DNA of 41,142 bases from a virus. Positions within the stretch are counted from its first letter, which is position 1. Every line of letters starts with the position of its first letter. Under the pieces are notes generated by a model. It made no database searches, had not been told where the DNA came from, and worked only from the letters and a program-made list of their open reading frames with translations. The stretch lies in IMG/VR virus record IMGVR_UViG_3300023181_000017, positions 1 to 41,142 of that record; one strand, written 5' to 3'. Shown here piece after piece: positions 3,163-41,142 of this stretch. Both the position numbers and the translations under genes were made by a program.

Positions 3163-5529
3163 CTAAGGAATCATTTTATAAATATCAACCCCATTAGATT
3201 TGTATCTTGCCGATGAATAAGTTAACGGTAATAAATCATCTGGCGAACCGTTGATGGTGCCAATAACGTTTACGGGGTTTGAAGTAGAATCTATTTTTAT
3301 TACCTCAACGGTTCTGTTCATAAGATTTGCTACACTCGGCAAAGTAATATTTACAGCTCCTGCGCTCGCATCTACATAAACCGTAACCATCCCGTTGCTA
3401 CCGAAATTAGCTGGCAAAACCGTATAATTTGCAGATTTATTTAAACTGTTTTCTAATGCGCTTAAATTGGCTTGCGTTAAAACATTTGAGCCATTCTGTT
3501 TGAGTGTTCCTGTAAAATTCCAATCTCCGCTAATTGTTGCATCTTCATCTTTTTGCGGGTAATTACCTAATGTTATTGCTGAACTTCCCGAACCAGGAGC
3601 ATTAACACCCGATGGAACACCAACCGAAAGCCCTGTTTTATCCTTTTCAGTTCCGTAATCTTCTTTTACTTCTGTTGTATGGGAAATATCAGCGGTTAAT
3701 GTTTCGGCAAATCTAAGAGTAGGAATTGATCGTTTTAAATCGAAGCTACCAGATAAGAAAATGTAATTACCAGGAAGTAAATCAATCGTTAATAAAGTAT
3801 TTATGTCAACGCTACCAAATCCAATAAAATCAGCTTCAAATATTCTGTAAGGCTTGCCGTGCAATCTTAATTCTGTATTCGCTACTATTTCAAGTAAAGA
3901 GGATGTTTCTGTAATTCCTGCCCTAGCCCAACTAAATGATGCAGTAAAAGGCGGAACAGCTCCGATACTTATTTGAGAAGTTCTCTTGTCATTCGTATCA
4001 TCCCCATGCAAAAGCAATATCGGATCTGGCGAAAATGTTTGAGCGGCTAAAGATTTTTGTCTATTAAATAATCCAACAGGCGGTTTTGTCTGATCTGAAT
4101 TTACAGCTGGAACAATGTTTACATTATTTATAGATGTTGGATAATCGGCTGGCCCTGCTTCCTGTAAGGATTGAACACCAAAATATAAGTCGTAATCAGA
4201 ATTTCTGGCATTAACTTTAAAATTAACACCAACCTGATTTGGACCAAAATCTCCGCTTCTATATCTAATAACATAAAATTGAAATCCTGGTTGCCATCCA
4301 TTGTTATTGGTAAAGTAATTCCCCGCTCCATCGGTAATTAAAACGCCTAAATATAAAAACACTAAAGCGGCACCACCTGGCGCGCTAGGTACAAGTACAT
4401 CAAAACTAACTGTTGTTGTTTCTTGCGCCCTAACTAAAACAGGTGCCGAATTATATAAATACCCACTTGCTCCAGATGAATCAATAATTACATAATGGTC
4501 GTTTGTTGGATTGCCGTTTTGATCTAGCCTAGTTGCTGTATGTGCTGTTGCCCCATTTTGAACAGACCAATTGTCGGGAAGCCCAACGGGATTAGTCGTC
4601 CATACGTCCATGTTGGCGTTGTCCAAAGCATTTGCCCCATAGCCATACTGATAATATGCCGTAGATGATGAAAAGGCCTTAGCAAATGAATTATTCCCTA
4701 CAGGAGATAAAACCCTGTTTGTTCCGCCAACAGTTAACGCGCTTCCTATTGTTGTTGTGCCTACTAATATCGCACCTTGATCGTACTCGAAAGCAGGAAC
4801 AACACCTGTTGAAAGCTCTAAAACATTTATGATTTGCCAGTAACCGTTAAATTGGTGTATTCTGCTTGAATATCTAGCTAATACCGACCTTATTACTTCA
4901 TGGCAACTAAAAGCATTACCATCGTTATCTATGAACCTATCGCAGTTAATAAAAGATTGCCTTAAAGGCGAATCAGTCGTTACCATTTGCGCTTCAAAAG
5001 TATTTACACCAACTATGAAAGGCAAACTTAACCCTGTTTTTAACAAAGCCTGTCTTAATACTTCTAAATCAGAAATAAAGCCTTTATACTTAGTTCCGTC
5101 TGCTTGTAAAAATGGAATATCTTTAAGCGTTCCTAAAGCATCGGTTGCCGAAATTGATACATCGTATGGCTTGGACTTATAAGGCTCGCTACACGCATCG
5201 GGAATTAACCAACCTTGCCAAACCCAGCCGCCCGACAAAACCACCATCCATTCACGTTCATCGGCTGTATATAAAGAAGATAATTCAAAAGTTCCTATTG
5301 CTTTTATATTTACATCGCAACTCGAACCGTTTACTCCCTCTAGTTTATATTCGCCTTTATTGGCGTAAGTCACGACAACAGGTGCATCGTTTTCCCCAGC
5401 AAATTGAATCGGGATAATAGCAGGAACAGGCAACGAACTATCCATTCGCTGTTTAAACTCAATAAAAATATCATTCCCTTGCTTATCGCAGAAATCCCCT
5501 TTATATATAGTATTGTAAACGTTTGCCAT
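3163..5529 (-). CDS. Tail-tip / distal tail structural protein, 788 aa
   Basis: It starts immediately after the tape measure stop (5530), the usual place of distal tail and tip proteins in siphophages. The N-terminal 250 residues (FIEFKQRMDSS, GGWVWQGWLIPDACSEPY, DVSISATDALGTLKDIPF) resemble proteins found after the tape measure in Bacteroidetes phages. The middle (about 290-480) looks like a carbohydrate-binding-type beta sandwich (MDVWTTNPVGLPDNWSVQNG; TVSFDVLVPSAPGGAALVFL). The last 80 residues (NITLPSVANLMNRTVEVIKI) resemble a small beta-rich trimer-forming segment common at fibre ends. It probably joins tube to fibres at the tip. No hydrolase motif was seen. The structural role follows from position; domain identities are tentative. 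Confidence 0.75.
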   Translation of the reverse strand: MANVYNTIYKGDFCDKQGNDIFIEFKQRMDSSLPVPAIIPIQFAGENDAPVVVTYANKGEYKLEGVNGSSCDVNIKAIGTFELSSLYTADEREWMVVLSGGWVWQGWLIPDACSEPYKSKPYDVSISATDALGTLKDIPFLQADGTKYKGFISDLEVLRQALLKTGLSLPFIVGVNTFEAQMVTTDSPLRQSFINCDRFIDNDGNAFSCHEVIRSVLARYSSRIHQFNGYWQIINVLELSTGVVPAFEYDQGAILVGTTTIGSALTVGGTNRVLSPVGNNSFAKAFSSSTAYYQYGYGANALDNANMDVWTTNPVGLPDNWSVQNGATAHTATRLDQNGNPTNDHYVIIDSSGASGYLYNSAPVLVRAQETTTVSFDVLVPSAPGGAALVFLYLGVLITDGAGNYFTNNNGWQPGFQFYVIRYRSGDFGPNQVGVNFKVNARNSDYDLYFGVQSLQEAGPADYPTSINNVNIVPAVNSDQTKPPVGLFNRQKSLAAQTFSPDPILLLHGDDTNDKRTSQISIGAVPPFTASFSWARAGITETSSLLEIVANTELRLHGKPYRIFEADFIGFGSVDINTLLTIDLLPGNYIFLSGSFDLKRSIPTLRFAETLTADISHTTEVKEDYGTEKDKTGLSVGVPSGVNAPGSGSSAITLGNYPQKDEDATISGDWNFTGTLKQNGSNVLTQANLSALENSLNKSANYTVLPANFGSNGMVTVYVDASAGAVNITLPSVANLMNRTVEVIKIDSTSNPVNVIGTINGSPDDLLPLTYSSARYKSNGVDIYKMIP

Positions 5530-33902: not shown

Positions 33903-33999
33903 TGGTATCAAGGAAAGGAATCGAACCTTTATAAACCATGCAGTAATACTGTCTAAACGGCTTTAATTTCTTTAGCGTCTACCATTCCGCCACCTTGAT
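33903..33999 (-). tRNA. tRNA-Leu-like gene (UAA), anticodon stem degenerate
   Basis: The acceptor stem ATCAAGG/CCTTGAT is perfect, with A73 and an encoded CCA. The D arm GCG..GGTAGA..CGC is typical for leucine, and the T arm AAAGG TTCGATT CCTTT is perfect. A TAA anticodon fits the loop ATTAAAG, but only about 2 of 5 anticodon-stem pairs form, and about 10 extra bases follow the variable arm. It may be a pseudo-tRNA or serve mainly as a processing signal for the tmRNA coding piece just upstream. Confidence 0.65.
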
Positions 34000-34005
34000 A
34001 AATTT

Positions 34006-34143
34006 GCAGGGATATAGTTCCCTGCTGACTGTTTAAGCTACCGCTCTAAGCGATGGATTATACATTTGTACAACTTTGCCAGTTGAATTTAAAACAATAC
34101 TCTGAATAACCTAATACGTAGCCTGTCAAAACCATGCTACCCC
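34006..34143 (-). ncRNA. ssrA: tmRNA coding piece (5' half of a permuted two-piece tmRNA)
   Basis: The minus strand begins GGGGTAGCATGGTTTTGACA, the tmRNA 5' consensus (GGGG acceptor strand, then GG.UUUGACAGG). A tag frame runs from GGC at 34080 to TAA at 34033: GKVVQMYNPSLRAVA, ending in hydrophobic AVA like known degradation tags. An A sits 4 nt before the resume codon, as in the conserved A86 of E. coli. After the stop comes a perfect 7-bp hairpin (34006-34025). Its 5' strand GGGGTAG pairs fully with the 3' strand of the piece at 34193-34257. SmpB must come from the host. Extent of the 3' end is approximate. Confidence 0.8.
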
Positions 34144-34192
34144 AGCAGAAAGGCGATCATTAATCAATCCTTTCTTATTTTAGTTGGTAATG

Positions 34193-34257
34193 TGGAGTAG
34201 GAGGGATTCGAACCCTCGTCCAAACTAATTTCAATTAAACGTCAATGTAGTGTTTTG
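34193..34257 (-). ncRNA. ssrA: tmRNA acceptor piece (3' half of a permuted two-piece tmRNA)
   Basis: The minus strand holds GGACGAGGGTTCGAATCCCTC then CTACTCC and A73, the tmRNA 3' consensus (GGACG before the T arm). The T stem GAGGG/CCCTC is perfect. No 5' acceptor strand lies upstream; instead CTACTCC pairs with GGGGTAG at 34143-34137, 49 nt downstream, with the G3-U70 wobble that AlaRS requires. CCA is not encoded. The 5' end lies between the tRNA-Tyr 3' end (34258) and about 34235. This order (3' half first) is that of circularly permuted tmRNA genes. Confidence 0.8.
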
Positions 34258-34328
34258 TGGGAAAAATAGGAATCGAACCTATGCAGTTATGATTTACAGT
34301 CATTCTGAGTAACCCTGACCATTTTCCC
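34258..34328 (-). tRNA. tRNA-Tyr-like gene (GUA)
   Basis: Acceptor GGGAAAA/TTTTCCC perfect, A73; T arm ATAGG TTCGATT CCTAT perfect; anticodon loop CTGTAAA with anticodon GTA and a 4-bp stem ATGA/TCAT. The variable loop is short (bacterial tRNA-Tyr normally has a long arm) and no good D stem forms. CCA is not encoded. It lies directly upstream of the tmRNA acceptor piece. Confidence 0.65.
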
Positions 34329-34337
34329 TTTTAAAAA

Positions 34338-34363
34338 GCGATTCTATCTCTCGACAGTATCGC
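34338..34363 (-). terminator. Terminator-like hairpin upstream of the tRNA/tmRNA array
   Basis: On the minus strand GCGAT...ATCGC with an extended inner stem (CT..TC gaga GA..AG) is followed by TTTTT. It would end the mRNA of the 34513-34743 gene, at least partly, before the tRNA-Tyr-like gene. Confidence 0.6.
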
Positions 34364-34512
34364 TCACCTTCCAAATTTACGCCATCCCTCATGCGTATTT
34401 TAAATCTCTTGTCGGGCTTCGTAATTCAACGTTTCGAACCGAATCATTATTCCGCCCTAAAAAGTCCTATGATTCTAACCTCGCGGCATAGGCACCTTCC
34501 TTTTAGTGTACT
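34364..34512. other. Intergenic stretch with inverted repeats, no gene seen
   Basis: The stretch holds a GGGC..GCCC and TAAT..ATTA imperfect inverted repeat around TTCGAA (about 34413-34456), and on the minus strand CCTATG...CATAGG. It looks like a structured RNA or a decayed tRNA, but no tRNA fold could be made. Confidence 0.4.
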
Positions 34513-40800: not shown

Positions 40801-41142
40801 TTAAATAACTGTCTTCACAAAATCTCCAGAATTATCTATAGTTATTCGATACTTAGTGCCATTATCGGATACATAGTCTATGCCCTTTATTAAACTATCA
40901 ATAATATCATTTTGGTTTATCACAGGCGACTTAGTGATAGGATTACTCGTTAATGCTGTCTTGTAATTAGTTACAGAATTTCCTTTTATGTAATTATCTA
41001 AAATTAAATGGCATCCCAACGAAATAGTTAAAGCATCCGTTACGTTATCTACATCTAATGTTCCAATCCTTAGGTTAGTTCCATTATTCATGTAAACTGC
41101 GGCCGCGGTTGTTCCTGCGTCTCGTCTGTAAATAAGATGTTC
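40801..41142 (-). CDS. C-terminal end of the receptor-binding fibre that begins at 2590
   Basis: The stretch codes for the last 114 codons, of which 41016-41142 duplicate 1-127. The codon at the junction is a glycine split between base 1 and bases 41015-41014. An inner Met at 41091 should not be taken as a separate start. The end of the protein (IDSLIKGIDYVSDNGTKYRI, ending FVKTVI) is a short beta-rich cap. Confidence 0.85.
   Translation of the reverse strand, partial: EHLIYRRDAGTTAAAVYMNNGTNLRIGTLDVDNVTDALTISLGCHLILDNYIKGNSVTNYKTALTSNPITKSPVINQNDIIDSLIKGIDYVSDNGTKYRITIDNSGDFVKTVI
41016..41142. repeat. Right copy of the 127-bp terminal overlap
   Basis: Identical to 1-127. Non-redundant genome is 1-41015. 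Confidence 0.95.

Follow-up and report, generated by a model that had tools for sequence, protein, structure and literature searches.

Can a phage whose probable hosts make a one-piece tmRNA carry a working tmRNA of its own in two circularly permuted pieces, and where would such a gene have come from? The question is raised by a 41,142-base IMG/VR virus record, analysed over its whole length (hereafter the window), for which an earlier note had proposed a gene of this kind at 34006–34257. Some 135 bases at positions 1–135 of the window recur as a direct repeat at ~41008–41142, which gives it the look of a complete phage genome, either circular or terminally redundant. Its genes include those for terminase, portal, head and tail proteins and a lysozyme. 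The TerL shares 60% identity with its counterpart in Flavobacterium phage 11b and 59% with the one in Cellulophaga phage phi10:1, and the major capsid protein is nearest to those of Flavobacterium phages. On this kinship the host is likely to belong to the Bacteroidota, and is probably flavobacterial, in keeping with the phylum first suggested for it and with the presence of the same RNA type in cultured Bacteroidota phages (below). When the flanking 3.3 kb was compared with named phages at the nucleotide level, nothing matched.

The gene occupies the minus strand from 34254 to 34033, with an acceptor half, a 49-nt spacer and a coding half in that order, the 3′ strand of the acceptor stem lying upstream of the 5′ strand (Table 1). 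Everything that had been read from the letters—GGAC, the T arm, CTACTCC-A, the 49 nt and GGGGTAG, together with a 7-bp acceptor stem containing G3-U70 and a 15-codon tag with its stop and an A at −4—is present, and the proposed ends fit an RNA that includes the post-stop hairpin. The Rfam family tmRNA_permuted (RF04321) matches the locus end to end at a modest 55.0 bits against a gathering cut-off of 47 (E = 3.6e-8 when the full window is searched). The Rfam models that the earlier note had advised stayed below threshold: RF01849, RF01850 and RF01851 gave nothing above their gathering thresholds in the window (the best among the matches listed was RF01850, at 35.3 against 84 bits), and RF00023, which describes one-piece tmRNA in unpermuted order, also stayed below its cut-off there. 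ARAGORN called the neighbouring tRNAs in the window but not the tmRNA. In two-strand folding, also advised, the pieces cofolded at −55.1 kcal/mol, with z = −2.8 relative to 100 shuffled versions; folded alone, the acceptor piece shows no excess stability (z = 0.11), as expected of a piece that pairs with a partner.

Table 1. Features of the tmRNA cassette in the window
Feature	Position	Strand	Basis or remark
tRNA-Tyr (GTA)	34257–34328	minus	ARAGORN; Rfam RF00005, 41.7 bits; directly upstream of tmRNA, same cassette
Acceptor (3′) piece: P2 strands, GGAC, T arm, acceptor 3′ strand, discriminator A	34193–34256	minus	5′ end predicted
GGAC; T arm GAGGG-TTCGAAT-CCCTC	34221–34218; 34217–34201	minus	sequence
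Acceptor 3′ strand CTACTCC; discriminator A	34200–34194; 34193	minus	7/7 pairs with 34143–34137; CCA not encoded
Intervening sequence, 49 nt	34144–34192	minus	contains GAAAGG...CCTTTC; presumably cut out by tRNA-processing enzymes
Coding (5′) piece: acceptor 5′ strand, D-loop region, P2 strands, tag frame, post-stop hairpin	34006–34143	minus	3′ end predicted
Acceptor 5′ strand GGGGTAG	34137–34143	minus	covaries with 34200–34194 at positions 4–7 across family
D-loop TGGTTTTGAC	34125–34134	minus	sequence; preceded by GGGGTAG-CA
Hairpin CAACT-GGCAA-AGTTG, resume codon GGC in loop	34071–34085	minus	present in part of family
Tag frame, 15 codons, GKVVQMYNPSLRAVA; stop TAA	34080–34036; 34035–34033	minus	A at −4 and −3
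Hairpin CGCT-TAG-AGCG in 3′ part of tag	34041–34053	minus	family covariation
Post-stop hairpin GCAGGGA...TCCCTGC	34006–34025	minus	similar hairpins in most relatives
Leu-like tRNA, odd anticodon loop	33903–33999	minus	ARAGORN, anticodon (taaa); RF00005, 38.3 bits; last cassette gene

Public collections were scanned with a DNA pattern of the permuted order in which the D-loop was fixed as TGGTTTTGAC, which matched 23 viral contigs against a single contig among 84,980 species genomes. That lone contig belongs to a Bacteroidales metagenome-assembled genome that also has a normal one-piece tmRNA, and its tape-measure, capsid and prohead-protease-like genes, judged from their translations, mark it as phage; RF04321 passes its cut-off in 22 of the 23 first-scan records as well. 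Two looser patterns raised the viral set to 55 loci, and with the metagenomic contig added and duplicates removed 47 distinct permuted genes remained. These include a few of alphaproteobacterial type (L124 and the types represented by L132 and L139); L124, L132/L135 and L139/L153 were set apart as such by their tags and stand outside the 43-member tag set. Run blind on those 43, ARAGORN called a permuted tmRNA in 29, with the identical tag in 22, leaving an annotation gap of 14 missed members, the window's included. The permuted order, itself part of the search pattern, is common to all 47 genes. Their acceptor strands pair at 7/7 positions in every case, G3-U70 is kept in 47/47 with positions 3 and 70 both free in the search patterns, and the T stem is fully paired (5/5) in 46. 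Spacers range from 32 to 96 nt, and in L143, L158, L160 and L370/cr114_1 the spacer itself houses a tRNA gene (Ala; His in the crAss-like cr114_1); a 2025 database paper reported a nested tRNA-Ala of this kind from a single sequence, nominally archaeal, and took it to be unique.

Whether the halves have evolved as partners was judged against re-dealt controls, in which one half of each sequence was swapped among the other members and pairing recomputed; such controls preserve column composition, not relatedness, and near-identical sequences were removed for the test of acceptor, T stem and tag hairpin. In none of 10,000 re-dealings was the observed pairing reached for acceptor positions 4–7, where true covariation occurs, for the T stem or for the hairpin inside the tag, of which relatives show compensatory versions (CCATT-TAG-AATGG, CCAGT-TAG-ACTGG). 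The three helices that unite coding and acceptor pieces, P2a, P2b and P2c, were each matched in 0 of 20,000, and close relatives again compensate in P2a, from AGGCTA/TAGTTT in the window to AAATTAA/TTAGTTT in L110 and GGATTAA/TTAGTCC in L138. Some members also have a predicted hairpin with the resume codon in its loop, for which support is moderate (133 of 10,000 re-dealings in fixed register, 3 of 2,000 for the best helix). Most relatives also have hairpins after the stop, with a mean score of 17.2 against 12.1 for shuffles, and runs of T often follow there. RNAalifold, applied to the spliced alignment, recovered the T arm and acceptor stem and nothing else; P2 escapes it because its register shifts between members. 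A helix like PK1, sought between the pre-tag region and the middle of the tag, was not found, the sequences' own pairing falling below that of re-dealt ones. That the window's copy is a chance arrangement or a decayed pseudogene might be argued from ARAGORN's silence; an E value of 3.6e-8, helices that are all intact and compensatory changes in close relatives speak against it, and covariation across the family refutes it in practice. The window gene is real and probably functional, and the central proposal of a phage-encoded, permuted, two-piece tmRNA is strongly supported by the Rfam match, the conservation over 47 members and the covariation.

The tag frame, too, has features that fit translation. 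A comparable frame with a stop is found in 43 members, and its opening codon is mostly GGC or GGA. An A precedes this codon at −4 in 43/43 members and at −3 in 41, and the tags share the pattern G-K-[VT]-I-x-[ML]-F...-P-[LV]-R-[AL]-[AV]-A. The last residue is A in 40 of the 43, a count to be read with the fact that the choice of frame was partly guided by the expected ending, under a rule that agrees with ARAGORN's independent call in 22 relatives. The last codon is GCN in 40/41, with A (17), G (12), T (6) and C (6) in third position; alanine codons ending in all four bases fit translation, not RNA structure. A second type of tag, comprising DYTNVA, DYTRIAA and DYTAIGA, occurs in crAss-like phages and relatives (L147, L162, L369, L370, L374, L375).

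Taken together, we assign a probability of about 0.83 to the reading that the locus gives rise to a working phage-encoded permuted tmRNA, processed by the host, charged by AlaRS, delivered by SmpB and appending GKVVQMYNPSLRAVA. Known two-piece tmRNAs mature through cleavage of their transcript by RNase P and 3′-end enzymes. By analogy, tRNA-Tyr, tmRNA and the following tRNA would form a single transcript that host RNase P and tRNA 3′-end enzymes cut and to which CCA is added; just 8 of the 47 genes encode CCA, so completion of the RNA is expected to fall to the CCA-adding enzyme of the host. The predicted products, an acceptor piece of ~65 nt and a coding piece of ~140 nt, would stay joined through the acceptor stem and the long P2 helix. 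Host AlaRS would then recognize G3-U70, and host SmpB would bring the charged RNA to stalled ribosomes, where translation would restart at GGC and the nascent chain gain GKVVQMYNPSLRAVA. Most likely this would free ribosomes and mark nascent chains for proteolysis by the host at a time when the mRNA pool is disturbed by infection. No SmpB gene was found in 37 phage records (the window and 36 others), so the host would have to supply the protein; the Pfam SmpB model does match in a Bacteroides control genome, so a host could do this.

Two other uses of the same RNA can be considered. At ~205 nt it is far shorter than the 350–400 nt of host tmRNA and has no detectable first pseudoknot, and the tmRNA of mycobacteriophage DS6A, which consists of the TLD only, has been discussed as an inhibitor (PMC4131195, PMC11915505); the phage RNA could on this model be a decoy that competes for SmpB or AlaRS and dampens host trans-translation. 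We consider this improbable, since a pure decoy needs neither tag frame nor stop, neither terminal alanine codon nor −4 A, all of which are conserved in diverse members. Somewhat more credible, though still unlikely, is that ribosomes are rescued with a tag that is not a degradation signal and instead alters the fate of the tagged proteins or spares them. Phage tags end in RAVA, RLAA, RMVA, KAAA or DYTRIAA where host tags end in YALAA or YAMAA, and most are longer; with RAVA at the end of the window's tag, against ALAA or AMAA in hosts, degradation is uncertain. Nearly all nonetheless finish on a small hydrophobic residue and alanine, which is compatible with recognition of the ClpXP type, and the 'PLRA' motif is in part accounted for by the covarying RNA hairpin and not by a function of the peptide.

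Across 393 Bacteroidota genomes RF04321 exceeds its cut-off in two, the phage contig of the Bacteroidales genome and G293, where the match adjoins what read, from translations, as phage replication genes (DnaB-like, DNA polymerase, helicase). A standard one-piece tmRNA is present in 96 of 99 Bacteroidota genomes, as the earlier note had stated to be normal for these hosts. Named carriers of the permuted type are Chryseobacterium phage MA9V-3 and Maribacter phage Panino, both cultured phages of Bacteroidota, and the crAss-like cr50_1, cr60_1, cr114_1 and cr125_1, whose genes are likewise of the window's kind and, in the crAss members, have tags of the DYTRIAA type; in GenBank, 'tmRNA' features are already annotated for several phages of the type, both crAss-like and flavobacterial. 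The Panino paper takes that phage's tmRNA for a copy that spares the host gene after integration (PMC11590407). Extended to the window, this would make the gene a copy of host ssrA kept for the sake of an attachment site, and tmRNA genes are indeed described as common integration sites in the same paper. Such a by-product is very improbable here: nearly all of the 99 genomes have the host gene in one piece, whereas the phage copy is complete, permuted and part of a tRNA cassette next to a lysozyme gene, and among the 393 genomes no permuted host gene above the cut-off lies outside phage-like DNA.

The cassette of tRNA-Tyr, tmRNA and Leu-like tRNA (33903–34328, ~426 bp) recurs with the same tmRNA in the sister phage L084/L123, and is cleanly missing as a whole from the near-identical phages L082 (site ~3413–3415) and L083, which shows that it is not essential. 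Only one of 36 related records of the window's phage group carries it; within that group the cassette is an accessory trait. In L084/L123 the Leu-like tRNA begins identically and differs in its middle, which is longer (~110 nt). The cassette-free site of L082 and L083 is bordered by a terminator-like hairpin on one side and a second inverted repeat on the other. Upstream of the cassette in the window is a non-coding stretch (34330–34512, minus strand) that terminates in a terminator-like hairpin, GCGATAC...GAATCGCTTTTT, and whose last part is conserved in both of these phages.

How does this RNA relate to tmRNAs already described? Permuted bacterial tmRNA is known from three main lineages. With RF04321, a merger of the alpha, beta and cyano permuted tmRNAs (PMC11915505), the window shares gene order, acceptor, T arm, D-loop, P2 and tag frame, yet its group scores 44–75 bits where the alphaproteobacterial-type L124 scores 153; RF01850 gives 33–52 bits in the group's scanned copies against a cut-off of 84. 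The tag starts 38–47 nt past the D-loop GAC in the window's group and ~63–68 nt after the D-loop in most alphaproteobacterial-type phage copies. Most classical permuted phage tmRNAs (matches to a TTCGAC pattern) have TGTTCT-GGAC, GAC-AGGGC and tags of the AND... type, whereas the window's group has mostly TGTTT-GGAC and GAC-AGC, with tags that mostly start with G. Phage-encoded permuted tmRNA as such is already known: it was reported for the methylophage Melnitz and, by ARAGORN, for ~53 deposited phages, mostly aquatic (PMC9004378). The two-piece RNA of Melnitz and pelagiphages is, like the window's, permuted and accessory in its phage group (PMC9004378), but its kinship is alphaproteobacterial, whereas the window's type has flanks like those of Bacteroidota.

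Those flanks bear on ancestry. The one-piece Bacteroidota tmRNAs (RF00023) L163, L242 and L244 have flanks, TGGTTTTGACAGC and GTTT before GGAC, identical to the consensus flanks of the window's group, and some one-piece tmRNAs, in part of the phylum, share AACT before the resume codon GGN. The D-loop TGGTTTTGAC of L163, L242 and L244 is identical too, which is no evidence of kinship because that loop was in the search pattern. Otherwise the host RNA differs in being unpermuted, with a longer pre-tag region and tags such as GESNYALAA and GNTQYAMAA. The tmRNA of Cellulophaga phage Calle_1 has CATTGACG-TTAA before GGAC and TGGTTTTGACAGG in common with the window, and is itself in one piece and unpermuted (5′ half at 42950, 3′ half next), with the tag GNNTNAVNAQIEANMEAVNAILNLEVAVGV. 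The Panino (PMC11590407) and Calle papers mention a tmRNA, and no passage located in them remarks on its form. An apparent split gene in Calle_1 (MT732432; L368/L377/L378) was rejected as a one-piece tmRNA with mis-annotated ends, running from 42950 to 43307 where the GenBank feature gives 43002–43361.

The flanks and the Calle_1 stretch suggest that the ancestor was of Bacteroidota type and the permutation a separate one, and an independent origin of permutation in Bacteroidota phages is plausible. The same flanks could, without common ancestry, result from adaptation to host SmpB, and a tree of the 53-column tRNA-like domain, with too few sites, mixed the groups and gave no firm placement. 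We hold at even odds the fuller proposal of a phage lineage of its own, derived from a one-piece Bacteroidota-type ancestor, permuted apart from alphaproteobacteria, betaproteobacteria and cyanobacteria, stripped of the first pseudoknot and confined to phages whose hosts keep the one-piece form.

The suggestion that the window represents a new lineage holds in part. A single widespread, compact, phage-restricted permuted type in Bacteroidota viruses appears to be undescribed so far, no account of it having been found in a search of open-access papers; permuted tmRNA in phages is no novelty, and members of this type are annotated in GenBank. If the further phage-restricted lineage is real, permutation arises repeatedly and can last outside the host chromosome, beside an unpermuted host gene. 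A natural minimal tmRNA with no detectable first pseudoknot would help to find out which of its parts are required for trans-translation. It also becomes a testable question why Bacteroidota phages, the crAss-like ones among them, carry a rescue RNA without SmpB. Beyond this phylum, a putative unannotated permuted tmRNA was seen in Alcaligenes phage vB_Af_QDWS595 (L376, ~55,250–55,300), a phage of a betaproteobacterium, as TGGACGCGGGTTCGACTCCC...GGGGGTGACATGGCTTTCGAC with a frame that ends NVYAAAA.
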